Shown piece by piece: positions 23,900-50,457 of a DNA stretch of 64,000 nucleotides; within the stretch, counting starts at the first letter, position 1, and every line of letters begins with the position of its first letter. The DNA lies in contig WVZO01000533.1 in NCBI GenBank assembly GCA_011772425.1, forward strand, positions 1 to 64,000, in the 5' to 3' direction. The translations under genes and the position numbers were made by a program. The DNA comes from Candidatus Aminicenantota bacterium. GTDB lineage: Bacteria > Acidobacteriota > Aminicenantia > UBA2199. The notes beneath the pieces were generated by a model. It saw nothing but the letters and a program-made list of their open reading frames with translations. It searched no databases and was not told where the DNA came from.

Positions 23900-24039
23900 A
23901 TTCCCTCCTTTTTTATGTTATTTTGTTTTTAATCTTACCTATCGCACCTGCCTCATGCCTTACCATGAATCTAAATTATATCAAATTCAAAAAAAAGGAT
24001 TTGCCGCAAAAAGACGAAAAAGAACGCAAAAAAAAACAG

Positions 24040-24062
24040 AGGGGGGGGATTTCCCCCCCTTC
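24040..24062 (-). terminator. GC-rich hairpin downstream of precursor 24070..24327
   Basis: AGGGGGGGGATTTCCCCCCCTT. Confidence 0.6.
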
Positions 24063-24069
24063 TTCTCTT

Positions 24070-24327
24070 TCAGCATGTAACATCTGTTTCTACACCTGTA
24101 CAAAGGCAAATTGAATCTGTATTACAGAGTGTTATGCAAGTACAACTATTACCACATGTATCAGGACATGTAGCACAAACATGTAAAACATCACTGCAGG
24201 TATCACAAAGGGTGACAGCTGTTTCTGCTGTGTTTCCCCCATGTACGTCACCCATTTTTGTTTTGCCCAGGTTAGCAATGGTTTTTTTGTTTAAAACCAA
24301 CCGTTTCTTTAAAGCTTCAGGTTTCAT
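24070..24327 (-). CDS. Putative RiPP precursor, 11-Cys Thr-rich core
   Basis: MKPEALKKRLVLNKKTIANLGKTKMGDVHGG | NTAETAVTLCDTCSDVLHVCATCPDTCGNSCTCITLCNTDSICLCTGVETDVTC; RBS AGGAGGG. Confidence 0.88.
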   Translation of the reverse strand: MKPEALKKRLVLNKKTIANLGKTKMGDVHGGNTAETAVTLCDTCSDVLHVCATCPDTCGNSCTCITLCNTDSICLCTGVETDVTC

Positions 24328-24442
24328 GTTCCCTCCTATTTTATGTTATTGTATTTTTTATTTGTAATCACACCTGCCTTATGCCTTACCTTAATTGCCA
24401 ATTCCAATTGAATTATATCATATTCAAAGACAATTTTCCACT

Positions 24443-26074
24443 TTATTTAAAAATTTCTACCAATGCTTTGCCCGATGAACCCGATGGGGCTTCGATTCCC
24501 AGCTTCAAAGCAACGGTGGGGGCAATATCTCGAGGAGAAACCAACCGGTACACCGCACGTTTTTTAATACCGGGACCGCAAAAGAATACCGGCACATGCA
24601 CATCGTATGATAAGGGAGAACCGTGCATGGCGGAATCCTGGTCATGAACATGATATAAAAACCAGAAGGGCTCCTGGAGTATTAAAATATTGCCGGACCG
24701 TTTGGGATGAAACGCCAGTTCCAATGATTTCAATTTGGGTGTATCGGGCAGGTTTCCTTTGAGCAAGTCCGAACGACCAACGGCAAAACCAATCCCCGGC
24801 ATGTTCATCAACGCTTCTACCGCAGCACCTTCCACCTCGGGGAGGTCCAGTTTGAGTTTTTCCACCACCTGGAGATTCAAATAGATAGAGGGATTGCGAA
24901 ATCCTACCACAAAATCCTCGTTGGTTTTGTATTTCTTTTGAAGTGCATCATTGACCTGTTTTTCGATTGCCTTCGGGTCCAGGCGGCCGGCAGGCATACC
25001 CAACCGGTGGCGAAATTCCGGGATCATGTCCACACCGTGATCACCGGTTAACAGGAGCAAGGTTCTTCTTAACCCGACGGTATTGTCGATAAACCGGAAC
25101 AGGTTTTCCAGTGTGGCATCCACCCGCAGGAGGTTGTCTTCATATTCAAGACTGCAGGGACCATAGGCATGCCCGATGCAGTCGGTGGCCGCAAAACTGA
25201 CGGTCAGAAGGTCCGTTGTACTCCACTGCCCCACTTTTTCCGCGTTCACCAGGTGAATGAGAAATTCCAGGTTCATTTCATCGGCAAAGGGCGTGTTGCA
25301 CAGTTGGAGATAATATTGATCGTCGGGATAATTAAGAGAATGGGGAAACACAGCGGACAGCCCGGTATACGTGGTCTCTTCGCTGCGGTCATCCTGGCGG
25401 CCGTAGATGTAGGAAGAGATTTCCTTTAAAAGTTCCCACTTTTTATTCCTGTATTGATCGACTTTTTTCAGGTTGTTCCACTCATCCAGCCATTGAGGGG
25501 GTGTCTTATAATAATATGGGCCGGTGATGAATTGACCGGTTTTTCTATCGTACCAGAAGGCTTTTCCCAGGAATCCGCCGGGAAGGATGGCGCCGCGGTC
25601 TTTAAGGGAAACATTAAAAACACGGGACTTACTTCCGGAAGCCAGGATCAATTGGTCGCTGATAGTGGTACTGGTTAATTGCCCGGGAGACATGTTTTCC
25701 ACGCTGCTGATCACTTTATTGGTTTGCCTGTCAATCCAGTAATTGCCGACAATTCCATGATCCGCGGGAATGGCTCCGGTAAAAATGGTGGCGTGCCCTA
25801 CTGCCGTAAGGGTGGGGGCATAACGGTACCGGGCATTTTTGTACCATACCCCGTTTTCCATAAGACAGCGAAAACCACCCTCCCCAAAGCGATGCTCCAG
25901 CCTTGACACCAGGTCTGCTCTCAATTGATCGATGACCACCATCAACACCAATTTGATTTCGCCGGGGTTGTCCCCACGGACCTTATTACTACAGCACGAA
26001 CAACCCGCCGCTGCCGACAACAAAAAAAACGTAATACAGCAGCCGATAAGCAATAAAAGAAAAATTTTCCTCAT
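24443..26074 (-). CDS. Alkaline phosphatase family lipoprotein (type I phosphodiesterase / PafA-like)
   Basis: LVLMVVIDQLRADLVSRLEHRFGEGGFRCLMENGVWYKNARYRYAPTLTAVGHATIFTGAIPADHGIVGN; Cys-rich lipobox-like N-terminus; late GDHGVDMIPE and HDQDSAMHG. Confidence 0.88.
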   Translation of the reverse strand: MRKIFLLLLIGCCITFFLLSAAAGCSCCSNKVRGDNPGEIKLVLMVVIDQLRADLVSRLEHRFGEGGFRCLMENGVWYKNARYRYAPTLTAVGHATIFTGAIPADHGIVGNYWIDRQTNKVISSVENMSPGQLTSTTISDQLILASGSKSRVFNVSLKDRGAILPGGFLGKAFWYDRKTGQFITGPYYYKTPPQWLDEWNNLKKVDQYRNKKWELLKEISSYIYGRQDDRSEETTYTGLSAVFPHSLNYPDDQYYLQLCNTPFADEMNLEFLIHLVNAEKVGQWSTTDLLTVSFAATDCIGHAYGPCSLEYEDNLLRVDATLENLFRFIDNTVGLRRTLLLLTGDHGVDMIPEFRHRLGMPAGRLDPKAIEKQVNDALQKKYKTNEDFVVGFRNPSIYLNLQVVEKLKLDLPEVEGAAVEALMNMPGIGFAVGRSDLLKGNLPDTPKLKSLELAFHPKRSGNILILQEPFWFLYHVHDQDSAMHGSPLSYDVHVPVFFCGPGIKKRAVYRLVSPRDIAPTVALKLGIEAPSGSSGKALVEIFK

Positions 26075-26222
26075 GGGTATGCCTCCTTCTTAATGCACTA
26101 TTATACCAGATACCGGAGAAAGTCAACAATCTCCCCGGAAACGGAATATGATTTTTCTTTAAATGCTTAGATTAGTTGAAAAATGTAAAGAAAATATTAA
26201 GAAGGAATAAAAGAATAAAAGC

Positions 26223-26258
26223 GGATACCGGGCAGTACACAGTACTGACCCGGTATCC
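26223..26258 (-). terminator. Hairpin downstream of peptide P1
   Basis: GGATACCGGGCAGTAC ACA GTACTGACCCGGTATCC. Confidence 0.8.
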
Positions 26259-26287
26259 TTGAGCTACCTTAATCCTCTTAATAGGAA

Positions 26288-26461
26288 TCAAGGATAAATG
26301 AAACCATAAACAATACCGGTTTCATCGAAATCTCCTTTTTTCTCGGCGGAAGTGATGATGGTTCCTTTTTTGTAGGAATCGTTAATGCTTTTCAGGATGT
26401 TACCGGTTTTTTGGGCACCATACCTGGATTCCAGCAGAGTTTTGACTGTGATTTGACTCAT
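26288..26461 (-). CDS. Small peptide P1 (57 aa), putative substrate of the B12-radical SAM enzymes; absent from supplied ORF track
   Basis: Hand translation: MSQITVKTLLESRYGAQKTGNILKSINDSYKKGTIITSAEKKGDFDETGIVYGFIYP*; RBS AAAGGAGGAC; homologous to 28857..29030 and 33654..33848. Confidence 0.88.
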   Translation of the reverse strand: MSQITVKTLLESRYGAQKTGNILKSINDSYKKGTIITSAEKKGDFDETGIVYGFIYP

Positions 26462-26499
26462 TTTGTCCTCCTTTAAATTTTTTTTACATTTGCTTGTGT

Positions 26500-28752
26500 T
26501 TATTTATAGAGTTCCACGGTACGGATTAACCTGGCTGCCGCTTCAGTATCCGCCTGTTTTCTCAATTGGCAATATTCTCCTTCGGACAAGGGATGGGGAA
26601 AGATACATGCGGCACATACCTCCTGCTTAGGGCAGCCGCGGCAGGTCCTCGTTTCCATGGTTTCCCGGTGTCGTGCCTCTATATTTTCGACGATCTCTTG
26701 CAGCGGCATGCCCACGCTGCCCACGGGTTGGCCGTTCCAGCAGGTGAAAACGTTATAGCCGGCATCGACAATAACGGTCTCCAGGCTCCGGCAATTGGGT
26801 TCTCCATCTTCCCAGCGGCACAGGGCGGCAAAATAGGGATAAACGGGCATATCGGCAATATCCTTAACAGAACCGGCGGAAGGGGAAAGACTGTCCAATA
26901 ATTCATACAGGCAAAAAGCATCCGTTTTATTCTTCTCAAAACAGAGGCTCAGCATCGGGTTGATGGACGATTGAGCCTCCGAAAGCCCTGTCTGCGTATC
27001 CACCCGGTGGATGGTGAACCCGCTTCGTTTACCGGTCATATGGACCCGGTACGGGGTAAGGGTCAGGGTATGATTGTCATGCCGAGTCTGATAGTAACCG
27101 GTATACGTATTGGTGGGAGCACAGTAGTTGATTAAGGCATCCTCATTATCCTGAAAATGTTCCCGCGCCCGGGAGTAATGGGAATAGATTTGAATGATAT
27201 TGCCACTCACTACCAGGTAGCCTTGCAGCCATGCCACCAGTTTCCGGGTAATAATATCACCGCAAAATATTACTATTTTAACGTGGTTGACCGGCTTCTC
27301 CCGTGAAGAAGATACGGGTAAAGACATGACTTTTATGTTCAGGTCATCCCGTGTTTTTCCCACCTCTTCAACATTGGAAAGAGGTTTTTCCGGCACCTCG
27401 ATTTGAGAGGTATCGTAAGGGTGAAGGGTTTTGTAATGAATTCGGTTTTCCAGGGGCTGCAATTTGAAGCCATATTTCTCATGATTGTAGAAAAGCGGTG
27501 TGCCGGGATATATCCGCAGTTTATTGTGGGAATAAAAATCCAGTGCTTTTTCCAGGGAACGAAGCAAATCAATGGTTTGCCTGCCTTCTTCCAGTGTCTC
27601 GGTGGGCAAGCCCACCATGATGCTGGTGTAAACGATCTTAAAGCCGATTTTTTTGGCATAGACTGCATACCTTTTGAATTTTTCGATGAATTCTCTCTCT
27701 TTTTCAAAGGTGTCACCGGGTTTGATGTGGGGTGGTTGAAGTTTGCCGATCATTCTCAGCACACGGGGTACGGCGCTTTCCAGGGAAAAGCCGACGGTTT
27801 GAAAACCCGCCTCCTTGAGTTTATTCAGCATTTCTTCATCGACATAATCACACCGGGTGAGGCACATCAGGGGGACGTTTATTTTGTTCTCGATAATTTT
27901 ATCGCAAATCTCCCTGGCCCTGTGGGGGTCGAGGGTAAAGGCATCGTCCCAGATATCCACAACTCCGGTATTTTCGTTGTAAAGGTGTTTGGAGATGTAA
28001 TCGAGCTCCCTGATAACCCGGTCCGCAGAGTGAGCAGTAACCCGCCGCCGGGACAATATCGAGCAGTTACAAAAGACACAATATTGATTGCAGCCCCTGG
28101 AGGAGAGCACCCCCATATGGGAAGATGAGATAACACCGGTGAGATAAGGGGAAGGAAATTTATCGAGGGGATCGGTAATTTCAGCACCCCCGGCCGGGGT
28201 GTCGCGGCGGGGTGTCTTGACAATGGCATCCCCGCAGCGGAATACGATTCCTTTGACCGTTTCCAGGGGGACATTTTCCAGGCGAAAATGGTCGTCAGCC
28301 AACAGGGAAAGCAATTCAAAAGCCGTATCTTCACCCTCATTTACCACACATATATCCACGAAGGGATTTTCCTCCAGGAGGGTTTGAGCCTGGACAGTAG
28401 GGGTAGGCCCGCCGAAGATGATGATAACAGCGGGATCGATTTCCTTTAATCCCCGGGCGATCAACCGGCAAATCCCATAATTGGCCTGGTAAACCGTGAA
28501 TCCCACGATTTTCGGTTTCTTAGCCAGGAGCCGGTTGACACATTGACGCACAGTGATGGGTTCGGGGGATTCCAAGGCAGCGGCGTTGAAACCCTTTTCT
28601 CTCAAGTAGGCAATAATATAAGCAGCTCCTAAAGATATCCTGAATCCGGTAGGATAACCTTTGGAAGAAGAAGGAGCAGGGGGACAAAGGAAAACCATAT
28701 GATTGCCGGCACTTTCTTTATTATGTATCTTCATGGTAAATGATCTCCCCAT
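26500..28752 (-). CDS. B12-binding domain / radical SAM / SPASM-like C-terminal protein (rSAM-1)
   Basis: MVFLCPPAP...GFTVYQANYGICRLIARGLKEIDPAVIIIFGGPTPT (B12-binding-like), SSRGCNQYCVFCNC (CX3CX2C), C-terminal CRWEDGEPNCRSLETVIVDAGYNVFTCWNG...CRGCPKQEVCAACIFPHPLSEGEYC. Confidence 0.92.
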   Translation of the reverse strand: MGRSFTMKIHNKESAGNHMVFLCPPAPSSSKGYPTGFRISLGAAYIIAYLREKGFNAAALESPEPITVRQCVNRLLAKKPKIVGFTVYQANYGICRLIARGLKEIDPAVIIIFGGPTPTVQAQTLLEENPFVDICVVNEGEDTAFELLSLLADDHFRLENVPLETVKGIVFRCGDAIVKTPRRDTPAGGAEITDPLDKFPSPYLTGVISSSHMGVLSSRGCNQYCVFCNCSILSRRRVTAHSADRVIRELDYISKHLYNENTGVVDIWDDAFTLDPHRAREICDKIIENKINVPLMCLTRCDYVDEEMLNKLKEAGFQTVGFSLESAVPRVLRMIGKLQPPHIKPGDTFEKEREFIEKFKRYAVYAKKIGFKIVYTSIMVGLPTETLEEGRQTIDLLRSLEKALDFYSHNKLRIYPGTPLFYNHEKYGFKLQPLENRIHYKTLHPYDTSQIEVPEKPLSNVEEVGKTRDDLNIKVMSLPVSSSREKPVNHVKIVIFCGDIITRKLVAWLQGYLVVSGNIIQIYSHYSRAREHFQDNEDALINYCAPTNTYTGYYQTRHDNHTLTLTPYRVHMTGKRSGFTIHRVDTQTGLSEAQSSINPMLSLCFEKNKTDAFCLYELLDSLSPSAGSVKDIADMPVYPYFAALCRWEDGEPNCRSLETVIVDAGYNVFTCWNGQPVGSVGMPLQEIVENIEARHRETMETRTCRGCPKQEVCAACIFPHPLSEGEYCQLRKQADTEAAARLIRTVELYK

Positions 28753-28791
28753 CTAAATCCTGGTCTTTGATACTATCTTTTAAATTAAAGT

Positions 28792-28827
28792 GGATACCGG
28801 GCAGTACGCAATACTTGCCCGGTATCC
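28792..28827 (-). terminator. Hairpin downstream of peptide P2, upstream of rSAM-1
   Basis: GGATACCGGGCAGTAcgcaaTACTTGCCCGGTATCC. Confidence 0.8.
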
Positions 28828-28856
28828 TTGTGCTGTCTTAATCCGCTTAATAGGAA

Positions 28857-29030
28857 TCAAGGAACAATGAAACCATAAACAATACCGGTTTCATCGAAAT
28901 CTCCTTTTTTCTCGACGGAAGTGTGAATGGTTCCTTTTTTGTAGGAATCGTTAATGCTCTTCAGTATGTTACCGGTTTTTTTGGCACCATACCTGGATTC
29001 CAGCAGAGTTTTGACTGTGATTTGATTCAT
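28857..29030 (-). CDS. Small peptide P2 (57 aa), homologous to P1; absent from supplied ORF track
   Basis: Hand translation: MNQITVKTLLESRYGAKKTGNILKSINDSYKKGTIHTSVEKKGDFDETGIVYGFIVP*; RBS AGGAGGAAAAA. Confidence 0.88.
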   Translation of the reverse strand: MNQITVKTLLESRYGAKKTGNILKSINDSYKKGTIHTSVEKKGDFDETGIVYGFIVP

Positions 29031-29067
29031 TTTTTCCTCCTATTATTTTATTTTACATAGTTAGTGT

Positions 29068-31302
29068 TTATTTATAGAGTTCCACGGTACGGATTAACCG
29101 GGCTGCCGCTTCGGTGTCCGCCTGTTTTCTCAATCGGCAATATTCTTCTTCAGGCAGAGGATAGGGAAAAATACAGGCGGCACATTTCTCCTGCTTTAGG
29201 CAGCCGCGGCAGTTCCTGGTTTCCAGGGTTTCCTTGTACCGTGCCTCTATATTTCCGACGATCTCCTGCAGCGGCATGCCCACGCTGCCAACAGGCTGAC
29301 CGTTCCAGCAGGTGAAAACGTTATGACCGGCATCGACAATAACGGTCTCCAGGGTCCGGCAATTAGGTTCTCCATCTTCCCAGCGGCACAGGGCAGCAAA
29401 ATAGGGATAAACGGGCATATCGACAATATCCTGGACCGAACCGGCGGAAGGGGAAAGACTGTCCAACAATTCATACAGGCACAGAGAATCCGCTTTATTT
29501 CTCTCGAAACAGAGGCTATGCATCGGGTCGACGCTCGATTGAGCCCTGGAAAGCCCCACCTGCGTATCCACCCGGTGAATGGTAAAACCGCTCCGTTTAC
29601 CGGTCATATGCACCCGGTACGGAATAAAGGTCACCGTGCGGCTGTCATGTGGGGCCTGGTAATAGTCGGTGTAAGTATTGGTGGGAGCACAGTAATTGAT
29701 TAAGGCATCCTGGTTATACCGGCAATGTTCCCGGGCCTGGTGAAAATCGGAATAGATTTGAATAATATCTCCATTTACCACCAGGTGGTCCTGCAGCCAT
29801 AGGATCAGTTCCCGGGTAATGATATCGCCGCAAAAAATTACTTTTTTAACGTGGTTGACCCGTTTCTCTTGTTCAGGAGATACGGGTAAGGACATGGATC
29901 TCAGGTTCAGGTTATCCCGTTCTTTTCCTACTTCTTCATTGGTGGAACGGGGTTTTTCCGGCACCTCGACTTGAGAGATATCGTAGGGATGAAGGGTTTT
30001 GTAATGAATTCGGTTTTCCAGGGGCTGCAATTTAAACCCATATTTCTCATGATTGTAGAAAAGAGGGGTACCGGGATATATAGAGAGTGCATTGTGGGCG
30101 TAAAAATCCAGTTTTTCTTCCAGGGAGCGAAGCAAATCAATGGTTTGCCTGCCTTCTTCCGGGGTCTCGGTGGGCAGGCCCAGCATGATACTGGTATAAA
30201 CGACTTTAAAGCCGATTTTTTTGGCATAGGATACATACCTTTTGAACTGTTCGATAAATTCCCTCTCTTTTTCAAAGGTGTCACCGGGTTTGATGTGGGG
30301 GGGCTGAAGTTTACCGATCATTCTCAGCACGCGGGGTACGGCGCTTTCCAGGGCAAAGCCGATGGACTGAAAACCGGCTTCTTTCAGCTTATCGAGCATT
30401 ACTTCATCGATGCAGTCACACCGGGTCATGCAGATCAGGGGGACTTTTATTTTATTCTCGATGATATTATCGCAAATCTCCACAGCCCTGGAGGGCATGA
30501 GGGTAAAGGCATCGTCCATGATGTCCACGGTATTGATATCCTGGCGGTAAAGATGTTTGGAGATGTAATCCAGTTCCCGGATCACCCGGTCCACGGAGTG
30601 AGTGGTAATGTGGCGCCGGGATAAGGAGGCACAGTTACAATAGACACAATATTGATTGCACCCCCTGGCAGAAATGACACCCATGGAGGGGGAAGAAATC
30701 ACACCGCTGAGATAAGGGGAAGGAAATTTATCCAGAGGGTCGGTGATTTCACCGCCCCCGGCCAGTAAACCGCGACGGGGGGTCTTTACGATGGTCTCCC
30801 CGGAACGGAACACGATTCCTTTGACCGTTTCCAGGGATACATTTTCCAGGCGAAAATGGACGTCATCCAACAGGGAAAGTAATTCAAGCGTCGTATCTTC
30901 ACCCTCATTGACCACGCATATATCCACGGCAGGATTTTGTTCCAGGACGGTTTGACCCTGGGCAGTAGGGGTAGGGCCGCCGAAAACAATAATAACAGCG
31001 GGGTCGATTTCCTTTAATCCCCGGGCAATCAACTGGCAAATCCCGTAATTGGCCTGGTAAACCGTGAATCCCACGATTTTCGGCTTCACAGCCAGGAGCC
31101 TGTTCACGCATTGACGCACAGTAATAGGTACGGGGGATTCCAATGCAGCGGCGTTGAAACCTTTTTCTCTCAAGTAAGCGATAATATAAGCAGCTCCTAA
31201 AGATATCCTGAATCGAGTCGGATGCCCTTTGGAGGAAGATGAAGCCGGGGGGCAAAGGAAAACCATATGATTGACGGTACTATTTTTATTATGTATCTCC
31301 AT
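29068..31302 (-). CDS. B12-binding domain / radical SAM / SPASM-like protein (rSAM-2), close paralog of rSAM-1
   Basis: SARGCNQYCVYCNC (CX3CX2C); near-colinear with rSAM-1; C-term CRWEDGEPNCRTLE...CWNG...CRGCLKQEKCAACIFPYPLPEEEYC. Confidence 0.92.
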   Translation of the reverse strand: MEIHNKNSTVNHMVFLCPPASSSSKGHPTRFRISLGAAYIIAYLREKGFNAAALESPVPITVRQCVNRLLAVKPKIVGFTVYQANYGICQLIARGLKEIDPAVIIVFGGPTPTAQGQTVLEQNPAVDICVVNEGEDTTLELLSLLDDVHFRLENVSLETVKGIVFRSGETIVKTPRRGLLAGGGEITDPLDKFPSPYLSGVISSPSMGVISARGCNQYCVYCNCASLSRRHITTHSVDRVIRELDYISKHLYRQDINTVDIMDDAFTLMPSRAVEICDNIIENKIKVPLICMTRCDCIDEVMLDKLKEAGFQSIGFALESAVPRVLRMIGKLQPPHIKPGDTFEKEREFIEQFKRYVSYAKKIGFKVVYTSIMLGLPTETPEEGRQTIDLLRSLEEKLDFYAHNALSIYPGTPLFYNHEKYGFKLQPLENRIHYKTLHPYDISQVEVPEKPRSTNEEVGKERDNLNLRSMSLPVSPEQEKRVNHVKKVIFCGDIITRELILWLQDHLVVNGDIIQIYSDFHQAREHCRYNQDALINYCAPTNTYTDYYQAPHDSRTVTFIPYRVHMTGKRSGFTIHRVDTQVGLSRAQSSVDPMHSLCFERNKADSLCLYELLDSLSPSAGSVQDIVDMPVYPYFAALCRWEDGEPNCRTLETVIVDAGHNVFTCWNGQPVGSVGMPLQEIVGNIEARYKETLETRNCRGCLKQEKCAACIFPYPLPEEEYCRLRKQADTEAAARLIRTVELYK

Positions 31303-33556
31303 GGTAAATCATTTCTCCATCTAAATCCAGGTCTTTGAAACCATCCAGCGAACGGAGTAATTGGGCGGGTACGGTGGTATTGACCTTTTTAAGGAGTTGG
31401 CAGTATTGGGAGTCAGGTAAGGGATGGGTAAAGAGGCATTTCGCACAACTGTCCTTTTGGCTGCAATTTGAACAATTCCTGGCGGCCAGGGCATTTCCGT
31501 GGTGTTTCTCGAGGTTCCGGGTTATTTGTGCCAGGGGCATGCCGACGTTTCCCACGGGTTTGCCATTCCAGCAGGTTTTAACATTGCCATGGGTATCGAC
31601 GATCACGGTTTCGAGCCTCCGGCAATTGGGAATCCCGTCCTCCCAGCGGCACAAGCTGCCGAGGTAAGGATAAATGGGGATATCTTCCAGTTCCTCTCCG
31701 TTTTTTCGCTTCTGTGCCAATTGAGACAACAACTGGTGCAGCTTCCGAGTATCGCTTCCTTCGCTGTCTACGGCAAAGGCATTGAGGGGATGGTAACGGG
31801 GAGGATTGGGGGAAACAGCGGTCCGGGTGGTCACCCGGTGGAGGGGAACACCGCATTGGACCCCGTAGGCCAGGGTCCGGTAGTGGAGCAGGGTGACAAT
31901 GCCGTCGGCATTCATGGTCTGGTAGTACCCGTGATAATAGACGGTGGGTGCAAGATAACGGCTGAGTTTCTCCTGGTTGAGGTGATAGGACTGGCGGATA
32001 CTGTCAGGGGAAGGGTATATGTGCAGAAAGACACCGTTGATGACCAGGTATTCCCGCAGCCACAACACCAGCTCTTCAGAAAGGGTTTCGCTGCAAAGGA
32101 TAACGGTCTTAAAGCTGTTGCCCCGGTGAGGCAGCGATTGGGGATTGTCCTGGGATAATTCCAGTGCCAGGGATTTAAGATTGGCTTTATCATTGAAGAT
32201 AGCGAAAATTTCATTACTGGATTTGGGGGCCAGTGGGATGCCTTCCACATCGTAGGAGTGGACGGTATTATAGTGGACCCGGTTTCGACATTGCTCTACT
32301 TTCACGCCGTGCCGCGGGGAGAAATCAAAGGCCGGAGTGCCGGGCCGCGCTTGAAAAATGTTATGCCCATAAAGATCGATGTATGGGGCCAGGGAGTGAA
32401 GAAATTCCATGGTTTGCCGGGCATCTTCCGGGGTTTCAGTGGGCATCCCCAGCATAATACTGGTATAAACATTTTTAAACCCGATGGTTTTAGCCAGTTT
32501 CACATATTTTTCTAATCGATGAATAAACTCTTTCTCTTTTTCATAGTGGGGATCGCCGGCGAAATCAGGGGGCCGGACTTTCCCCATTTTCCTGAGAATA
32601 CGGGGAACAGCACTTTCCAGGGAAAACTCGATGGTGACGATTCCTGCTTCTTTCATCAATTGTAAAAGTTCTTCATCTACTTTATCGCAGCGGGTCAGGC
32701 AGGCAAAGGAGAGCTTTATCTTGTTTTCGATGATTTTCCGGCAAATGTCTTTGGCCCGATGGGGCAGCAAGGTAAAAGTGTCATCAAATATATCCACGAT
32801 ACCGTTTTCGCCGGGATTTAGGTATCTGGAGATGTAATCCAGTTCTTCCACTATACGGTCCGGGGAATGGGTGGCAATGGTATGATTTGCTATGAGGGGG
32901 CAGACACAAAAAGAGCAGTGTTGATTGCAGCCCCGGGCAGTAATGATACCGAGTCTATGGGAATCCGCCAATCCCGTCAGGTAAGGGGACGGGTATTTAT
33001 CCAGGAAATCGTGAACGCCCTGGTTATTGGCATAAACACCCCGGTCAGGGTTATTGTAGATATTTTCTCCGTCCCGGAAGGTAATTCCCCTGATTTTATC
33101 GAGGGGGGACCGCCCCGGCTGGAAATTGGCATCATCAAGTAATGGGATCAATTCCAGGCAGGTTTCTTCTCCTTGGTTTCGGACGCATATATCCACGAAG
33201 GGATTGGTTTCCAGGATAGTCCGGGCATGGAGAGTCGGTAACAATCCGCCGAAAATCACGGGGATATGTGGAGACACCTCTTTGATCTTGCTGGCGATGA
33301 GCTGGCCCAGGAAATAATTGGAATTATCGATGGTAAAACCCACCATACGGGGGTTTAATTCCAGGATAGCGGCGGTGCAGTGGTTGATGGTAAGGGGTTC
33401 ACTGCTGACGAATTGACCGGCGGCGATTCCCTTTTGGTTAAGGTAAGAAATTATAAAAGCAGAGCCCAGGCACATCCGGAACCAGCACCGGGCATTTTCG
33501 GCAGAAGCGCTGACAGCGGGGGGATAAACAAATATAATATGCGGACGGTTCACCAT
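31289..33556 (-). CDS. B12-binding domain / radical SAM / SPASM-like protein (rSAM-3), divergent paralog
   Basis: TARGCNQHCSFCVC (CX3CX2C), IPVIFGGLLPTLHARTILETNPFVDIC, C-term CRWEDGIPNCRRLETVIVDTHGNVKTCWNG...CSNCSQKDSCAKCLFTHPLPDSQYC; 14-bp overlap with rSAM-2 start. Confidence 0.92.
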   Translation of the reverse strand: MVNRPHIIFVYPPAVSASAENARCWFRMCLGSAFIISYLNQKGIAAGQFVSSEPLTINHCTAAILELNPRMVGFTIDNSNYFLGQLIASKIKEVSPHIPVIFGGLLPTLHARTILETNPFVDICVRNQGEETCLELIPLLDDANFQPGRSPLDKIRGITFRDGENIYNNPDRGVYANNQGVHDFLDKYPSPYLTGLADSHRLGIITARGCNQHCSFCVCPLIANHTIATHSPDRIVEELDYISRYLNPGENGIVDIFDDTFTLLPHRAKDICRKIIENKIKLSFACLTRCDKVDEELLQLMKEAGIVTIEFSLESAVPRILRKMGKVRPPDFAGDPHYEKEKEFIHRLEKYVKLAKTIGFKNVYTSIMLGMPTETPEDARQTMEFLHSLAPYIDLYGHNIFQARPGTPAFDFSPRHGVKVEQCRNRVHYNTVHSYDVEGIPLAPKSSNEIFAIFNDKANLKSLALELSQDNPQSLPHRGNSFKTVILCSETLSEELVLWLREYLVINGVFLHIYPSPDSIRQSYHLNQEKLSRYLAPTVYYHGYYQTMNADGIVTLLHYRTLAYGVQCGVPLHRVTTRTAVSPNPPRYHPLNAFAVDSEGSDTRKLHQLLSQLAQKRKNGEELEDIPIYPYLGSLCRWEDGIPNCRRLETVIVDTHGNVKTCWNGKPVGNVGMPLAQITRNLEKHHGNALAARNCSNCSQKDSCAKCLFTHPLPDSQYCQLLKKVNTTVPAQLLRSLDGFKDLDLDGEMIYHGDT

Positions 33557-33602
33557 TTATATCCCTTCTCTTTGGGAATTTCTAATTATTGAATAAGAAA
33601 GA

Positions 33603-33634
33603 ATGCCGGGCGGTACGCCGTACCGGCCCGGCAT
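33603..33634 (-). terminator. Hairpin downstream of peptide P3, upstream of rSAM-3
   Basis: ATGCCGGGCGGTACGCCGTACCGGCCCGGCAT. Confidence 0.8.
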
Positions 33635-33653
33635 CCACTAATTAAGTTTTACG

Positions 33654-33848
33654 TTACTGCGGAAACACAATGGGGTAAAAAAAACCATTGACAATGCCGC
33701 TTTCATCTAAGACGCTTTTTTTCGCATTACTCATGCATTTGACCTTTTTTCCTTTCCTGTAAGCATCGTTGATTCCTTTCAGCACATTACCGGCAGTGCC
33801 CTTGCCAAACCTGGATTCTAACAGATTTCCTAACGTAATTTGACTCAT
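33654..33848 (-). CDS. Small peptide P3 (64 aa), divergent homolog of P1/P2
   Basis: MSQITLGNLLESRFGKGTAGNVLKGINDAYRKGKKVKCMSNAKKSVLDESGIVNGFFYPIVFPQ; shares MSQIT..LLESR(Y/F)G and DE(T/S)GIV(Y/N)GF with P1/P2. Confidence 0.88.
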   Translation of the reverse strand: MSQITLGNLLESRFGKGTAGNVLKGINDAYRKGKKVKCMSNAKKSVLDESGIVNGFFYPIVFPQ

Positions 33849-34014
33849 TTTAACCTCCTTTTAATTTATTTTATATTTGGCTTACCTAACTTACTTATTA
33901 ATTTTTTTTTATAACATATAACAGGAAATTTTTCAACCCTCAAGGAGAAAAAAAAAATTTTTTCGGAATTTCCGGCGGAAAGAATCGCCACAAAAATACA
34001 AACGAAATAACGGC

Positions 34015-34042
34015 AGGCGGGGTTGATTAGACAACCCCGCCT
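34015..34042 (-). terminator. Perfect 11-bp-stem hairpin downstream of precursor 34075..34275
   Basis: AGGCGGGGTTG ATTAGA CAACCCCGCCT. Confidence 0.8.
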
Positions 34043-34074
34043 TTAACGGTTTCCTTATTCGTTTCTTTTACGTG

Positions 34075-34275
34075 CTAATCGGTATTGGGATAACAAAGTG
34101 GCGGTTCTGACGGAATACAATGACACGTGGCATAAGGACAACGAACTACAGCAGAAACATAACTGGTACAGTGCGTGCTGGTCCCTCCAATGACTTCATC
34201 CATTTCCGGTTTACCCAGGTTAACAATGGTCTTTTTGTTTAAAACCAACCGTTTGCTAAAAAATTTAGATTTCAT
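34075..34275 (-). CDS. Putative RiPP precursor, fourth 'LNKKTIxNL...GG' leader peptide
   Basis: MKSKFFSKRLVLNKKTIVNLGKPEMDEVIGG | TSTHCTSYVSAVVRCPYATCHCIPSEPPLCYPNTD; RBS AGGAGGG. Confidence 0.85.
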   Translation of the reverse strand: MKSKFFSKRLVLNKKTIVNLGKPEMDEVIGGTSTHCTSYVSAVVRCPYATCHCIPSEPPLCYPNTD

Positions 34276-39737: not shown

Positions 39738-39797
39738 ATGAAATGGTCAAAGATTCTTCTATCACATGAACCTCCTGATTTAAACGTTAGCGGTTAA
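39738..39797 (+). CDS. Possible 19-aa micro-ORF upstream of radical SAM gene
   Basis: AAAGGAGGTAAATAAAAA-ATG; MKWSKILLSHEPPDLNVSG*; strong SD at good spacing. Confidence 0.35.
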   Translation: MKWSKILLSHEPPDLNVSG

Positions 39798-39993
39798 AGA
39801 GGTTAAACAATGATCTTGGCATGCGGCACTCAAAAAAATAATTTTTTTCATCCACAACTATTGACAATATATCAACATTTATTATAATATGATTTCAACT
39901 ATTCATTTTTTACTTGGTACGCTTGTTGGTTGATAAAGAGTGTCGGTTCCGAGCTGGCATTAAAACCGGCAAAAACGAAACCGGGAGTTTAAA

Positions 39994-41415
39994 ATGAAAG
40001 TATTGGAGAAGGCCAAGACTGTCAAAAAAGAAATCAAAGTACAACCATATAAATCGTCGAAGTACAATCATTTCTTCGAACAAAATGGGTTTATCCTGGC
40101 CTACAATGCGTATACCAATTGCTTTGCTGAAGTGACCCCGGAAAAATACAAAATAATCAAAGCAATCCTTAAAGACCCGGGAAAATTCCAATATAAGACG
40201 GTCGAAGAAAGAAAATTAAAGGACGACCTGACGAAAGGTGGTTTCCTGGTCCCGGAAGAATTGGATGAGTTTGAATTGTTGAAATTACAGAATAGACTGG
40301 GCAGGTTCCAGCAAATATCTTTAGGGTTAACCATTGCTCCCACTGTTGCCTGTAATTTCAGGTGTACCTATTGTTTTGAATCTCACCAAAAAGAGAGAAT
40401 GACAAAAGAAGTGGAAACGGCCCTGGTAAAGTTTGTGGACGAGAAATTGAAAATTGTTAAAAGCCTTAATATAACCTGGTTCGGTGGAGAGCCCCTGATG
40501 GCCCTCGATGTCATTGAACGCCTGGCAAAGTCATTTAAGGAGTTGTGTGAAACGCATCATGTGGATTTTCCCCCCGCCAGTATCATCACCAACGGCTATT
40601 TATTAACCAAAAAAAGGGCAGAAATATTAAAACAATCAAACGTTGCCAGCGCCCAGATTACCATCGACGGTCCATCGCGAATACACGACAGGAGAAGAAA
40701 GTTAGCCAACGGCAAAGGGACGTTTGCACGGATTATTAAAAACATCAAGGAATCCATGAACATTATAGGCATCATGGTCCGGGTAAATCTCGATAAAACC
40801 AATGAAAAATATTTAGATGAGCTCTACGAAATCTGGAGAAAAGAGGGATTAGCCAATAAGGTTCCCTTTTATTTCGGGCATGTCCAGGCTTATACGGAAG
40901 TATGTGCCGACATCTCCTCTCAATGTTTCTCCACGTCGGATTATTCGGCCTTACTGATAAAGAAAATTAAAGAAGCCCAACAACAGGGGGTCTGGCTGGC
41001 TTCCTACCCGTCGCTGCACCGAAGCGGCTATTGTACGGCGGATAAATTCAATACTTACACCATCGCCCCGTCCGGATATCTTTTTAAATGCTGGGGAGAA
41101 GTCAGTGATGGCCTGGAGAATTCCATCGGCAGTTTGGACGGTAAAAAATCTAAACCGGTGCAAATAAAAAATCTCACCAGATACTTAAACTGGGATCCAT
41201 TTGAGAAGGACGACTGTAAAAAGTGCAATATTTTACCTATTTGTGCGGGGGGATGTCCGTATACCCACTTAAATCCAGCAGCACCCACGACAGGGGATTG
41301 CAGCTTTTGGAAATATAACCTTCATGATATGTTGAGATTGAAGTACGATGCATTACAAAGACATAAAAAAATAAAATCCAATAAAGGAGGGAAACATGAA
41401 TTTTCTGATCTTTGA
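39994..41415 (+). CDS. Radical SAM/SPASM peptide maturase
   Basis: APTVACNFRCTYCFE (CX3CX2C), WFGGEPL, C-terminal SPASM-like FKCWGEVSDG...CKKCNILPICAGGCPYTHLN...C. Confidence 0.93.
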   Translation: MKVLEKAKTVKKEIKVQPYKSSKYNHFFEQNGFILAYNAYTNCFAEVTPEKYKIIKAILKDPGKFQYKTVEERKLKDDLTKGGFLVPEELDEFELLKLQNRLGRFQQISLGLTIAPTVACNFRCTYCFESHQKERMTKEVETALVKFVDEKLKIVKSLNITWFGGEPLMALDVIERLAKSFKELCETHHVDFPPASIITNGYLLTKKRAEILKQSNVASAQITIDGPSRIHDRRRKLANGKGTFARIIKNIKESMNIIGIMVRVNLDKTNEKYLDELYEIWRKEGLANKVPFYFGHVQAYTEVCADISSQCFSTSDYSALLIKKIKEAQQQGVWLASYPSLHRSGYCTADKFNTYTIAPSGYLFKCWGEVSDGLENSIGSLDGKKSKPVQIKNLTRYLNWDPFEKDDCKKCNILPICAGGCPYTHLNPAAPTTGDCSFWKYNLHDMLRLKYDALQRHKKIKSNKGGKHEFSDL

Positions 41416-41584
41416 TCCCCTTGCAAATGTCGCAGAACAGATCAGTTCAGACGTTCTGGCAGCGAAGTTCGAATGCGAAGACCACTCCTCGAATTGTACT
41501 GTCTGGTGCGGAGGAGTTAGTTGTTCGGGCTGGTCGTGCGATGATTACGCCTGTGGTGATCCAGCACAAGTGACATTTGATTGA
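41396..41584 (+). CDS. Putative six-Cys RiPP precursor peptide (62 aa)
   Basis: MNFLIFDPLANVAEQISSDVLAAKFECEDHSSNCTVWCGGVSCSGWSCDDYACGDPAQVTFD; RBS AAAGGAGGGAAAC-ATG; overlaps 3' end of maturase by 20 nt. Confidence 0.85.
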   Translation: MNFLIFDPLANVAEQISSDVLAAKFECEDHSSNCTVWCGGVSCSGWSCDDYACGDPAQVTFD

Positions 41585-41606
41585 TTGAATCATTAAGGTG
41601 GATGGT

Positions 41607-41638
41607 GGGAAGGGCAGCGGTTAAACGAAGCCCTTCCC
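41607..41638 (+). terminator. Hairpin between six-Cys peptide and ABC transporter (attenuator-like)
   Basis: GGGAAGGGC ... GCCCTTCCC; a second GC-rich imperfect hairpin plus CCTTTTTT follows at about 41660-41695. Confidence 0.65.
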
Positions 41639-41716
41639 CCATCTACCGCTATTTGAAAGCGGGGAACCTTCGAAAAGGAACCCCACCTTTTTTGCTAAAT
41701 AAACCAGGTAGAAATT

Positions 41717-43450
41717 ATGCGTAATAAAGATATTATACTTAAATTTCTTAAATTTTACAAGCCTTATATTTCAAAAGTGGTTAAAGCAGCGCTTTTAATG
41801 ATTACGGTCTCTTTATTGCAGCTTCCGCTCCCCCTGCTTACCATGTATATTATCGACAATGTCCTGGTGAAAAAAGATTATCATTTATTAACGATTCTAT
41901 GTGCTTTACTGCTTTTTATCGGCCTGGTGAGTATCGCGGCGAGTTTTTTACAGGGATACTACCTCCAATACATCCGGCTGCGGGTAATGAGTGATATACG
42001 CAATCGCTTGTTTAACCATATCATCCGGTCTAATATCTCCTTTTTCAAAAAACATCAAACCGGGGACTTGATGGCAAGAGTTTTAAATGATATTTCCGCT
42101 TCACAGGGATTATTCGCCGATACCATCGTCAATTTATTAAGGAATTCGGCTACCTTAATTTTCGGTGTGATTATCATATTTACTCTAAACTGGCGTCTGG
42201 CAATACTATCGCTGCTGTCACTGCCGTTTTTTATATCATCCCTTCTCATTTTCGCGGAAAAAATAAAAAAAATGAGCAAGAAATCCCAGCAAAGATACTC
42301 CGAAGTTTCCCTGACACTCAACGAATCGCTGCAGGCACCGGAAGTGGTTAAAGGGTTTTTAAGAGAGAACCGGGAAAAATTAAAGTTTTTCTCCCGGATC
42401 AATCGACTGGTAAAACAGAGAATTAAAACCATTATGTTATCGATGACCTCCAGCAATCTGACATCATTGGTGGGAATGCTTGCACCATTGATGGTGTTGT
42501 GGTACGGGGGCCAACAGGTTATGGCCGGACATTTAACCCTGGGGGGATTTGTTGCTTTCAACTCCTTTTTAATGTACCTGTTTAATCCCATCCAGAGCCT
42601 GATCGGCTTAAACCTCTCCATTCAATCCTCCCTGGGGGCAGCCGAACGAATTTTCGAGCTGCTGGGGAAAAAAACCGAAGATTATGACCGGGGTCAACAC
42701 ATCAACATATTGCAAAACAAAATTTCCGTCCGCCGCCTGTTTTTTTCCTATGACGGTAAAACCAATGTGCTCAACGATATCAATTTCGATATCCATGCCG
42801 GGGAGAAAATCGCGGTTATTGGAGCCAGCGGTTCGGGAAAGTCCACACTGGTCAACCTGCTGCTCAGGTTTTATGACGTAAAACAAGGAAAAATCCTGGT
42901 AGACGGTATGGATTTACAGGATTTATCGTTGAAATGCATCAGGGAACAAATCGGTATTGTCCACCAGGATTCCTTCCTATTCTCGGGAACGATTTTAGAA
43001 AACATTTCCTATGGTAAACGGGAGACGGGACACGCACACATCATCGAGGCGGCAAAAGCCGCCAATATGCACGATTATATTATGAAACTTCCTGCCGGGT
43101 ACCATACCTACGTGGGGGAACGGGGTCTGCAGTTATCCGGCGGCGAGCGCCAGAGAATCGCACTGGCCAGGATGTTCTTGAAAGCACCCTCGGTGATCAT
43201 TCTTGATGAATCCATGTCCCAACTGGATTGCGAAAATGAAAAACAAATTTTGGAAAACCTGTTTTCCTCTTACGCGGATAAAACCATTATCATTATCACT
43301 CACCGTCCCAGTTTGATCAACTATTTCGACCGGGTGCTGCTGCTGGATAAAGGACGGTTAACGGCCATCGAGGAAAAAAAGGATATTTTATTAAGTCTCA
43401 AAAATAATACATTGTTTGATACAAAGGAGATGTTCTATGGAAAAAATTAA
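41717..43450 (+). CDS. ABC transporter, fused TMD-NBD (MsbA-like exporter)
   Basis: GASGSGKSTLVNLLLRFYD Walker A, LSGGERQRIALARMFLKAPSVIILDE signature/Walker B; no N-terminal C39 peptidase domain. Confidence 0.93.
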   Translation: MRNKDIILKFLKFYKPYISKVVKAALLMITVSLLQLPLPLLTMYIIDNVLVKKDYHLLTILCALLLFIGLVSIAASFLQGYYLQYIRLRVMSDIRNRLFNHIIRSNISFFKKHQTGDLMARVLNDISASQGLFADTIVNLLRNSATLIFGVIIIFTLNWRLAILSLLSLPFFISSLLIFAEKIKKMSKKSQQRYSEVSLTLNESLQAPEVVKGFLRENREKLKFFSRINRLVKQRIKTIMLSMTSSNLTSLVGMLAPLMVLWYGGQQVMAGHLTLGGFVAFNSFLMYLFNPIQSLIGLNLSIQSSLGAAERIFELLGKKTEDYDRGQHINILQNKISVRRLFFSYDGKTNVLNDINFDIHAGEKIAVIGASGSGKSTLVNLLLRFYDVKQGKILVDGMDLQDLSLKCIREQIGIVHQDSFLFSGTILENISYGKRETGHAHIIEAAKAANMHDYIMKLPAGYHTYVGERGLQLSGGERQRIALARMFLKAPSVIILDESMSQLDCENEKQILENLFSSYADKTIIIITHRPSLINYFDRVLLLDKGRLTAIEEKKDILLSLKNNTLFDTKEMFYGKN

Positions 43451-45908
43451 CCCACCGTGGAAAACCAGGTCATTTATTAAGTTAACCTCAACGTTTCTTA
43501 TCCTTGAATTATTTCTTTTCTGTCTCGGCTACGGCCAACAAAACACATCTCCAAGTCAATATGACCGCATCGTTAGTAACGCCCAAAAATCCTATAAAGG
43601 GTTATTTAACCTGTTCATCACTGAGGGTAATACGTATTGCGAGATTCCCGGGAAACTCCTGGGTAAAGAAATGATATTGGTATCCCGTGCGGTCAAAGTC
43701 CCCCATTTCTTTGATTTTCCAGGAAAAAAAATACAGGAGCGCATCATCCGCTGGGAGAAATTTAACGGAAAAATCCTCCTCAGGGACATTTCCTGTGTTT
43801 ATATCACCGATAAAAAAAAGAAATCACCCTTTGATCAAGCGGTGGAAGACACAAATTTCCAGCCGATCCTGGCTGTTTTCCCAATAATCACGACGAACAA
43901 TGAAAAAACCACATTTATCATTGATATCGAATTTCTTTTCATCTCCGACTCCCAATTCATCAGTTTTAACCAAGAATTGAGAAAGAAGTATAAAATTCGC
44001 GGCCTGGATAAAAGAAAAAGTTTCATTCTTTCTTACAACAGTTTTCCTAAAAATATCGAAATACGAAACTTGTTAACCTATTATTCATCGTTGGATGACT
44101 TTCCGGGCTCGTTTTCCGTCGAACTGTATCATACGATATATTTATTACCTGAAAACCCCATGCAGCCCCGGCTGGCGGATCAACGCACCGGGTATAGCCA
44201 AGTGAGTGTTAAAGACTATAAAGAAGATAAGTATATCATCGGCGATTGCCACTATATCACGCGCTGGAGATTGGAACCCAAAGACAAAAACGCCTATTAT
44301 AAAGGGAAATTGGTAGAACCGATTCAACCCATTGTTTTTTACATCGATCCCGCCACCCCGGAGAAATGGCGTCCGTATATTAAAAAAGGGGTGGAGAATT
44401 GGAATGCCGCATTCGCAGCCGCGGGCTTTAAAAATGCCGTTATCGCCAAAGACCCCCCGGGTTTAAAGAAAAACCCGGATTTTCATGCCGATGATATCCG
44501 GTATTCGGTGATTCGTTATTGTGCGTCAACCCAGGAGAACTGCCTGGCTCCCCGGGTGGTTGATCCCAGAACCGGCGAGATCCTTGAAAGCGATATCCTC
44601 TGGTCTCATAGTATCATGAATCAATTAAGACGATGGTATTTTGTGCAAACCGCCGCGTCAAACCCGGAAGCCCGTAAAATCCCCCTTGATGATGACGTTA
44701 TGGGAGAGTTAATCACCTTCCTGGTGTCCCATGAAGTGGGGCACAGCCTTGGGCTGAAACATAACATGAGGGCCAGTGCCTCTGTCCCGGTGGAATCCCT
44801 GCGTTCTGCTTCTTTTACCTGGGAAAAAGGATTGGCCCCCTCGATTATGGACTACGTCCGTTTTAACTATGTTGCGCAGCCGGGGGATAAGCGGGTTCGC
44901 TTTATTCCTAAGATTAGCGATTATGATATCTTTGCCGTTCGCTTTGGTTACCGGCTCATCCCCAATGCCAAATCACCGGAAGATGAACAGCCTGTCCTGA
45001 ACCAATGGTTCAAGGAAAAGGAGAATGATCCCCGGTATATTTACGGCGACGAAAACCTGATGGACCCGGCAGCGCAAACGGAAGACCTGGGGGATAATGC
45101 CGTCAAAGCCGGGGAATACGGAATCGCCAACTTAAAACGAATTACGGCCAACCTGGTCAAATGGACCTGCAAAACCGGCCATGACTACAGTGAATTAAAA
45201 ACATTGTACAAGGAGATTTTTCGCCACTGGAACCATTTGATGGTCCATGCCGCCAAAAACATCGGCGGTATTTACAAAACTCCAAAGGTGACCGGTCAGG
45301 AGGGCCCGGTTTATGAATTTGTCCCTGCCAATATTCAAAAAAATGCGTTAAGATTCCTCTGCAAACATCTCTTTAACACGCCGCGCTGGCTCATCACTGA
45401 GAATATCTTTCCACTGACCCGCCATTCAGGGATGGTGGAGCGTATTCGGCTGTACCAGGTGAATATCTTACACTTGATCATCAACCCGGCAACGTTACAG
45501 CGTCTCATCGAGGCTGAAGCGAGAATCGGCAATCACGCCTACTCCCTGGCAGAGTTTATGACTGAGCTGCGGGAGAGCCTGTGGAAGGAATTGAAAACCG
45601 GTGAAATCCCCGACGGATATCGAAGAAACCTGCAGCGGGGATACCTGGCTCGTTTGCAATACCTGGTAACCAGGGAACCCAAACCCATGCCCTTGAAATA
45701 TCAACGCCTGACTACCGTGGTAAATGTGAATCAATCCGATATACGGCCGGTCATTCGTTTCCAATTGAAAACACTTAAAAAAGACATTGAAATGTCTTTA
45801 AAAAATGACCCGGATCAGCTCACCCGCATACACCTGGAGGATGCCCTGGTACGCATCACAAACATCCTGGAATTCAAACCAATAATGGTAAAGGACAATG
45901 AAAAATAA
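43437..45908 (+). CDS. Secreted zinc-dependent metalloprotease (metzincin, DUF5117-like)
   Basis: VSHEVGHSLGLKHNMRAS = HEXXHXXGXXH; start MEKINPPWKTRSF overlaps ABC transporter stop. Confidence 0.9.
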   Translation: MEKINPPWKTRSFIKLTSTFLILELFLFCLGYGQQNTSPSQYDRIVSNAQKSYKGLFNLFITEGNTYCEIPGKLLGKEMILVSRAVKVPHFFDFPGKKIQERIIRWEKFNGKILLRDISCVYITDKKKKSPFDQAVEDTNFQPILAVFPIITTNNEKTTFIIDIEFLFISDSQFISFNQELRKKYKIRGLDKRKSFILSYNSFPKNIEIRNLLTYYSSLDDFPGSFSVELYHTIYLLPENPMQPRLADQRTGYSQVSVKDYKEDKYIIGDCHYITRWRLEPKDKNAYYKGKLVEPIQPIVFYIDPATPEKWRPYIKKGVENWNAAFAAAGFKNAVIAKDPPGLKKNPDFHADDIRYSVIRYCASTQENCLAPRVVDPRTGEILESDILWSHSIMNQLRRWYFVQTAASNPEARKIPLDDDVMGELITFLVSHEVGHSLGLKHNMRASASVPVESLRSASFTWEKGLAPSIMDYVRFNYVAQPGDKRVRFIPKISDYDIFAVRFGYRLIPNAKSPEDEQPVLNQWFKEKENDPRYIYGDENLMDPAAQTEDLGDNAVKAGEYGIANLKRITANLVKWTCKTGHDYSELKTLYKEIFRHWNHLMVHAAKNIGGIYKTPKVTGQEGPVYEFVPANIQKNALRFLCKHLFNTPRWLITENIFPLTRHSGMVERIRLYQVNILHLIINPATLQRLIEAEARIGNHAYSLAEFMTELRESLWKELKTGEIPDGYRRNLQRGYLARLQYLVTREPKPMPLKYQRLTTVVNVNQSDIRPVIRFQLKTLKKDIEMSLKNDPDQLTRIHLEDALVRITNILEFKPIMVKDNEK

Positions 45909-45960
45909 AACACCATCAATAACCATAACAATAGAAATGCAGCAGGAGGTGTGGAAACAA

Positions 45961-47120
45961 TGAAAAAGAAAAAAATAAGTGTTGTGATCCTGTGTATCTT
46001 GATCGCATCTTTCTTCGCCCGGTTATATCCCGGAACAGTCGAGGAAAAGGACGAAAACACCGCTGTTCCGTTAAACAAGGATGCCGGGAGAATTGTGCAA
46101 TTAAAGGAAATAATGAGATTTTCAGATGACCCGGAGAACCCGACCGCCTATTTTTTTAAATATCCCCGCAGACTAAAAATAGCCCCGGACGGCAGTATTT
46201 TTGTTGCCGATAGGAAACAATTGTTGAAGTTTGATGCCACCGGGAAATTCGAAAAAAATTATTACCGACATGGTCAGGGTCCCGGGGAGATGCTTTATTT
46301 AAGTAATTACACCTTTAACCGCAGCGACAACACCATTATCCTTCACGACAATGGTCAGAATAAAATCATCATTATGGATATGAAGGGCAACCTGGTCCGG
46401 GAGTTTAAATACAGGCCCAGGGGAAGAAAGATTTTTATCAAGGCTTACGACAAGCATTACTTTTTTTTCGAAAAGAAACCAGCCGACACCAAAGGTAAAC
46501 TGAAAATATATGAAATCCCCATGAGTTTAGTATCGGTATCGGCGGATGGGAATGAAATTGCGGACAGGTTCCAATTCCCCTTAAGATACATGATATTAAA
46601 ATCCGGGGACCGCTCCTTTACGACGCCGCGAGCAAGATTAATTGTTCGTTCCCTTGAACCGCATTTTTTGATTATTTCACATACCCCGGAATATCAAATC
46701 AAATGGTTCAGCTTAAAAGAAAACCGGGTAATTTTACGATTTAACCGGGAATACCGGAGAATAGAGGTCACGCCTGAGACGCGGGAATACGCCCACGGCG
46801 GCAATTATGATAAGATATCCATCGGCGGACAATTTCATAAGGTGCCGGTGGCTAAGTACCTGGATGATATTCAAACATTTTTCCGGATTCAGGATCGGTT
46901 GTGGGTGGTCACCTCAACAGTGGATAAAACCAAAGGGATATTGGTGGACGTGTTTGACCGGGAGGGAAAATACATCGATAATTTTTACCTTAAATACCCG
47001 GAATATGTGGAACCCTATCGCGCTGCCCGTTGGCTGAGCACGGTTCACAACGAGTTTATTTTCGCCATCGAGGAAATAGAAGGTGAATGGTTCCTGGTGA
47101 AATATAAAGTAGAAACGTAA
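45961..47120 (+). CDS. 6-bladed beta-propeller (NHL-like) protein, secreted
   Basis: KIAPDGSIFVADRKQLLKFDATGKFEKNYYRHGQGPGEM...IIMDMKGNLVREFKY; ATG at 45961 follows AGGAGGTGTGGAAACA. Confidence 0.8.
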
Positions 47121-49098: not shown

Positions 49099-50457
49099 AT
49101 GAACACCATACTTCCGGGATTTAAACCGGGTGTAATCTGTTTGTTAATGTCATTGGCATTGGTTTTTTTCTTTAGTGCCTGCCGGCAGGGCAGCAATGGG
49201 GTGTCACCGGTTCGCAATGGTAATGAGCTCAAGTCTCCCCTGGCGCGTGATACGTCTCCAGCCTACAGCGAAAACGAATTAAGGCAATTGGTCAGCAACA
49301 ACAACACCTTTGCTTTTGAGTTGTATCAAATGATTAAGGACAAAGCGGATAATTTGTTTTTTTCCCCTTACAGCATTACGGTGGCCCTGGCAATGACCTA
49401 TGCCGGAGCCAGGAGCCAAACCGAAACCCAAATGGCAGCGACATTACATTTCAATTTCCCGCAGGACAAACTGCATTCGCTTTTCAATGCCCTGGACCTG
49501 GAACTGGCCAACCGGAAACAGAGTGAAACCAAGGAAGACGATGAGGGCGGTAAATATCTAAAGCTAAACATCGCCAATGCCATATGGGCCCAGGAGGACC
49601 ATCCGTTTCTTGATGAGTACCTGGATATACTGGCAATTAATTATGGTGCGGGGATATGGCTGGTGGATTTCAAGTCCAACCCGGAGCAGGCGCGTCTGAC
49701 CATCAACGATTGGGTTGCCCGGCAAACAGAAAATAAAATAACGGATCTCCTGGAGGAAAGCCAGATTGACCGGTTTACCAGGCTGGTATTGACCAATGCC
49801 ATTTACTTTAACGCTGCCTGGGCAATTCCTTTTAACGAAGAGGTTACTTATGACGGCGATTTCTATCTCTCGAACGGCAGCACAATAACGGTTCCCATGA
49901 TGATACCCCAGGAAGGTTCCGGTGAAAATGGCGAAATATATACCACTGCCGAAGGACCCGGGTACCAGGCGGTAGAACTGCCCTATTATGGTGGGGAATT
50001 CTCAATGCTCATTGTTATCCCGGACCAGGGAACGTTTGCCACCTTTGAACAGAACCTGGATTACTCGTTGATCGAGGAGATTGTCAACAATTTGCGGGGG
50101 GAAGATATCACGTTACGGATGCCTAAGTTTGGCTGTGAATCGGAATTCGATCTGGCAAATGCTCTTGCCGGGATGGGCATGCCCGATGCGTTTAATAGTA
50201 ACCTTGCTGATTTTTCCGGCATCGATGGTGGGGTGGGCGGCCTTTATATCGGCGCGGTTGTTCACAATGCCTTTATAACCGTGGATGAAGCCGGAACAGA
50301 AGCGGCTGCCGCCACCGCAGTGGTTGTTTTCGGGGTCGGCGTCCGGAACCCCCGGGAAATAATCATTAACCGGCCTTTTATTTATATGATCCGGGATATG
50401 AAAACCAATACGATATTGTTCCTGGGCAGGGTAAAAAAACCAATCCCTCAAACATAA
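49099..50457 (+). CDS. Secreted (lipoprotein) serpin
   Basis: NLFFSPYSITVALAMTYAGARSQTETQM, LTNAIYFNAAWAIPF, VDEAGTEAAAATAVVV hinge, RPFIYMIRDMKTNTILFLGRV; lipobox-like FFSAC. Confidence 0.95.
   Translation: MNTILPGFKPGVICLLMSLALVFFFSACRQGSNGVSPVRNGNELKSPLARDTSPAYSENELRQLVSNNNTFAFELYQMIKDKADNLFFSPYSITVALAMTYAGARSQTETQMAATLHFNFPQDKLHSLFNALDLELANRKQSETKEDDEGGKYLKLNIANAIWAQEDHPFLDEYLDILAINYGAGIWLVDFKSNPEQARLTINDWVARQTENKITDLLEESQIDRFTRLVLTNAIYFNAAWAIPFNEEVTYDGDFYLSNGSTITVPMMIPQEGSGENGEIYTTAEGPGYQAVELPYYGGEFSMLIVIPDQGTFATFEQNLDYSLIEEIVNNLRGEDITLRMPKFGCESEFDLANALAGMGMPDAFNSNLADFSGIDGGVGGLYIGAVVHNAFITVDEAGTEAAAATAVVVFGVGVRNPREIIINRPFIYMIRDMKTNTILFLGRVKKPIPQT

Follow-up and report, generated by a model that had tools for sequence, protein, structure and literature searches.

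A candidate Clo7bot-like radical SAM/SPASM peptide operon with exported propeller and metalloprotease genes in Candidatus Aminicenantota

Introduction

SPASM-type radical SAM maturases of RiPPs form thioethers from cysteine residues and generally rely on a leader. The ranthipeptide maturase PapB installs non-alpha Cys-Asp/Glu thioethers with a mass loss of 2 Da each, and for non-alpha thioethers MS/MS spectra without fragments inside the rings have been reported (PMC9413430). In the products of CteB-type enzymes, Cys is linked to Thr (reviewed in PMC8326336). A further family, Clo7bot (TIGR04333/TIGR04334), is represented by curated models and by true loci in Clostridia, and our literature search found no paper naming Clo7bot or TIGR04334. 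The same search found no paper combining Aminicenantes, radical SAM and RiPP, while queries on related family names returned unrelated papers only.

Here we describe a locus from a Candidatus Aminicenantota bacterium, contained in a stretch of 64,000 nucleotides that we refer to as the window (GenBank assembly GCA_011772425.1, contig WVZO01000533.1, positions 1 to 64,000). The locus very probably serves to produce, cross-link and export a Cys-rich peptide, and is a distant cousin of the clostridial peptide family with different, variable exported helper proteins.

Results

The locus comprises five genes, all on the forward strand. A radical SAM/SPASM peptide maturase (39994-41415, 473 aa; Pfam PF04055) overlaps by 20 nt a precursor peptide gene (41396-41584, 62 aa with six Cys), which was recognized from its sequence and a strong ribosome-binding site (AAAGGAGGGAAACATG). 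These are followed by an MsbA-type ABC exporter (41717-43450, 577 aa; ABC_membrane and ABC_tran), an exported metzincin-type metalloprotease that overlaps the exporter gene by 14 nt (43437-45908, 823 aa; DUF5118-DUF5117-DUF4953) and an exported six-bladed beta-propeller (45960-47120; DUF5128), whose start we take as ATG 45960, with GTG 45951 as an alternative. A preliminary description of this DNA had given the same five genes and overlaps on one strand, a peptide with the pattern C-x6-C-x3-C-x4-C-x4-C-x4-C, a leader without GG and an exporter without a C39 peptidase domain, all of which were confirmed by the ORF listing, the sequence and Pfam/NCBIfam searches; the six cysteines are C27, C34, C38, C43, C48 and C53, and the only GG of the peptide sits between C38 and C43.

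The exporter/metzincin overlap and the short gap before the propeller suggest a single transcript. Upstream of the maturase gene, a promoter-like TTGACA-16-TATAAT (39861-39888, forward strand) agrees with the consensus at 12 of 12 bases, a consensus match alone that says nothing of function. Between the peptide and exporter genes (41585-41716, forward strand), RNA folding gives a long GC-rich hairpin (-55.4 kcal/mol, z -5.8 versus shuffles) and a second terminator-like stem with a T run, and these intergenic stems may reduce the share of transcripts that continue from the peptide gene into the exporter gene. We regard the locus as a real operon and, with good confidence, as one of the radical SAM RiPP type.

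Several neighboring features of the window were also recorded. A 19-codon ORF upstream of the promoter-like site (39738-39797; MKWSKILLSHEPPDLNVSG) has a strong ribosome-binding site (AAAGGAGG), lacks Cys and begins M-x-W as leaders do; it is possibly a remnant or a regulatory peptide. The operon is followed by a gene for a secreted protein that shows weak similarity to C39 (47504-48760, reverse strand) and by one for a serpin protease inhibitor (49099-50457, forward strand). A separate module (23284-34275) encodes Cys peptides with a GG leader (K-x-L-x-L-N-K-x-T-I...GG) at 23284-23475 on the forward strand and at 23690-23899, 24070-24327 and 34075-34275 on the reverse strand, together with three B12-binding radical SAM proteins (26500-33556, reverse strand).

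The maturase has intact catalytic motifs, with a CxxxCxxC cluster motif (CNFRCTYC) and the full set of seven SPASM cysteines (C347, C366, C408, C411, C417, C421 and C436). An alignment of 12 sequences, two of them true Clo7bot maturases, shows no variation at any of the ten radical SAM and SPASM cysteines. It thus carries the SPASM auxiliary-cluster cysteines by which ranthipeptide maturases are judged. The N-terminal ~100 residues are likely to bind the leader. The closest solved structure is that of CteB (5wgg), and a single-sequence AlphaFold2 prediction of the maturase was unusable (mean pLDDT 38).

Among curated models, the maturase was matched best, and over its full length, by the Clo7bot model TIGR04334 (E = 1.8e-106), followed in descending order by TIGR04463, CefB, FlmE/OhkG, the geopeptide maturase and PapB, and it reached no curated NCBIfam cut-off. 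Its 356 bits against TIGR04334 compare with a cut-off of 600 and with 829 and 775 for two clostridial maturases. The window peptide misses TIGR04333 (31-bit cut-off), which is passed by all three peptides taken from true loci, and it matches no NCBIfam family. Like Clo7bot, the locus has a short Cys-rich precursor adjoining the maturase, an ABC exporter nearby and, probably, the N-terminal leader pattern described below; unlike Clo7bot, it has one precursor rather than the tandem arrays of the clostridial loci L111 and L112, and adds an exported propeller and a metzincin. We read the locus as related to Clo7bot but outside the curated family, and as distinct from SCIFF.

Other described systems are less similar. 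The Cys-every-fifth maturase CefB (NF038107) is the third best model at 230 bits and part of the window core does have Cys at every fifth residue, but the cut-off of 600 is missed, the core holds only three x4 gaps and the peptide has no CefA match. PapB/freyrasin and CteB/SCIFF likewise combine a radical SAM/SPASM maturase with a Cys-rich precursor. However, the window maturase scores 133 bits against a cut-off of 340 for PapB (NF047865), with no CX3D array in the peptide, and 85.7 bits against 425 for SCIFF (TIGR03974), with a peptide that is not SCIFF. Membership in SCIFF, PapB and CefB was rejected because the maturase falls below each cut-off. The preliminary description had not recognized the peptide as SCIFF, which these scores bear out, and the neighborhood search that it proposed, once run, places the locus near Clo7bot, a family it had not named.

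Maturase homologues are scattered among the genomes searched (60 relatives, 396 from the phylum and 143 from the class), with the nearest at G038:C7 (44%) and G038:C61 (40%) and with three paralogues in the same genome at 35-37% identity. A quick tree groups the window maturase with the loci L061 and L076-L079 at moderate support (SH-aLRT 92 and 89 in two runs). The sole match from a search of genome contigs was one remote lachnospiraceal locus.

The core of the precursor extends from about residue 27 and has Asp or Glu near C27, C48 and C53. When the 20 kb around the locus was shuffled 60 times with a Markov model, none of the 371 resulting ORFs with a ribosome-binding site packed six Cys into a similarly short span, whereas 3 of the 10 such ORFs in the actual DNA did. 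We also collected Cys-rich ORFs preceded by a ribosome-binding site from regions of up to 20 kb surrounding 31 homologous loci. A short leader pattern, M-x-Aromatic-hydrophobic-x2/3-P, emerged both at true Clo7bot loci of Clostridia and at numerous loci from the phylum of the window. It occurs in 34 of the 52 Cys ORFs near such maturases versus 0 of 33 control Cys ORFs (p = 7e-11), a test that is partly circular because the pattern was drawn from the same loci. Examples are MQFIIEPIK (L061), MIFLLEPIT (L062), MEWIVEPMN (L068) and MDWIIEPLS (L081), while the precursor arrays of L111 and L112 have starts such as MKYIVKP. The window peptide begins MNFLIFDP, which fits given one inserted residue before the Pro. 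Ranked by leader, it came 1st with a gapped PSSM (insertion allowed post hoc) and 71st with a local HMM, against a background of 18 matches among 2,541 start codons in the window, so its assignment to the shared leader pattern is likely rather than proven.

Cores at related loci differ greatly in how many Cys they contain and how these are spaced, and the C-x4-C spacing seen here is therefore no family signature. No Cys-rich peptide turned up in our search of L076-L079, four loci from the window maturase's own group in the tree. The peptides adjoining the homologous maturases at L071 and L073 are of another type, with a GG leader (MTKIKFDFIETPEKTLDAADALMPHLSTLSEADLEKMKGG); two or more leader types are thus served by this group of maturases. 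At L081 (1164-4100), one maturase gene precedes a series of at least six short Cys peptides, all of the same type. At L080, a leader-motif peptide, the maturase and two propellers are preceded by two small Cys-containing proteins with apparent signal peptides (MKKARILIG... and MGKTRKLLV...).

The exporter is 55% identical to that at L061 (G038:C7), the closest maturase locus, and the best matches of both exporter and maturase fall at that locus. Of 32 loci, 14 have an exporter of the same family no more than 7 kb from the maturase, on the same strand in all but one, and 7 have exported DUF5128 propellers; both counts are minima because many loci stop at contig ends. One such exporter, at L070, has a C39 domain. 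On G001:C12, propellers alternate with peptide genes. Within the genome of the window, 10 of 40 DUF5128 propellers lie within 5 kb of radical SAM genes versus 1.2 expected (p = 3e-7, or 1.4e-3 with each contig counted once). Clusters of exported DUF5128 propellers with SPASM-type radical SAM genes were seen on contigs C759, C621, C633, C68 and C491 of this same genome (G000).

The zinc motif of the metzincin, HEVGHSLGLKH, matches HExxHxxGxxH, its DUF4953 domain scores 373 bits (Pfam cut-off 24.2) and a signal peptide can be read from its sequence; the PDB held no sequence relative. It is the sole copy found in this genome, and none was found in 33 other same-family genomes sampled or at any of the 31 other related radical SAM loci. 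Class relatives carry five metzincins, all of them away from peptide genes. On these data, the metzincin was rejected as a conserved partner of the maturase.

Discussion

We estimate a probability of roughly 0.7 that this locus is a Clo7bot-like radical SAM/SPASM RiPP operon, combining leader-guided Cys thioethers with MsbA-type export and an extracytoplasmic propeller, with or without the metzincin. The maturase would bind the short N-terminal leader, probably through its own N-terminal region. With its radical SAM and SPASM auxiliary clusters, it would then form thioethers between several of the six Cys thiols and residues close by. The exporter would carry the product out, and the exported propeller, perhaps with the metzincin, could then act on it outside the cytoplasm by binding, trimming or immunity.

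Judged from sequence, the product is probably of the thioether-forming radical SAM RiPP type, with non-alpha (ranthipeptide-type) linkage more likely than alpha. A sactipeptide, whose maturase would make sulfur-to-alpha-carbon links and whose product would be antimicrobial, shares the general enzyme class (SPASM), a Cys-rich core and a dedicated exporter with what we observe, but is very unlikely given that the sactipeptide maturase RumMC scores 61 bits versus 133 for PapB, the best-scoring model with chemistry confirmed in a paper (PMC9413430), and 356 for Clo7bot, and that no immunity gene was recognized. Other radical SAM chemistry, such as cyclophane formation at Trp or Tyr, is possible.

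What happens after export bears on the two downstream genes. The preliminary description had joined the maturase, the Cys-rich precursor and the C39-less exporter in one likely operon, which stands, and had proposed the metzincin as the leader protease, which fared less well. As a dedicated leader protease, the metzincin would cut the whole modified precursor after its export, outside the cytoplasm; the overlap of its gene with that of an exporter without a C39 domain, its signal peptide and its zinc motif are consistent with this. Yet it occurs at no other maturase locus, leaving the idea no direct comparative support, its class relatives lack peptide genes nearby and most related loci have no protease nearby, and we regard this role as unlikely. 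The only indirect support comes from L062, where a pair of exported M16 peptidases (HLVEH in one of them) lies in a comparable slot between the maturase and the propeller/exporter genes, so that a dedicated exported protease is possible. That similar operons carry exported zinc proteases of two kinds is suggestive, with two cases only. The metzincin and propeller might instead be an unrelated pair of exported proteins merely downstream of the peptide operon, as the absence of the metzincin from related loci and the 30 of 40 propellers in this genome that lie more than 5 kb from any SPASM-type radical SAM gene would allow. This reading is somewhat unlikely, since the gene spacing suggests a single transcript and the propellers are enriched near radical SAM genes here, are found again at related loci and are interleaved with peptide genes on G001:C12. 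Beyond the Clo7bot-like operon that we favor, the locus might represent a RiPP subclass in which protease-less MsbA-type export is combined with a dedicated extracytoplasmic set, a propeller and an exchangeable zinc protease (the metzincin here, the M16 pair in G038), that would finish, hold or deliver the cross-linked peptide; we consider this quite unlikely.

Together, these results widen the range of Clo7bot-like radical SAM peptides from Clostridia to another phylum. The recurring exported propeller is a concrete and testable candidate component of such peptide systems, and the short N-terminal leader pattern could find many unannotated precursors.
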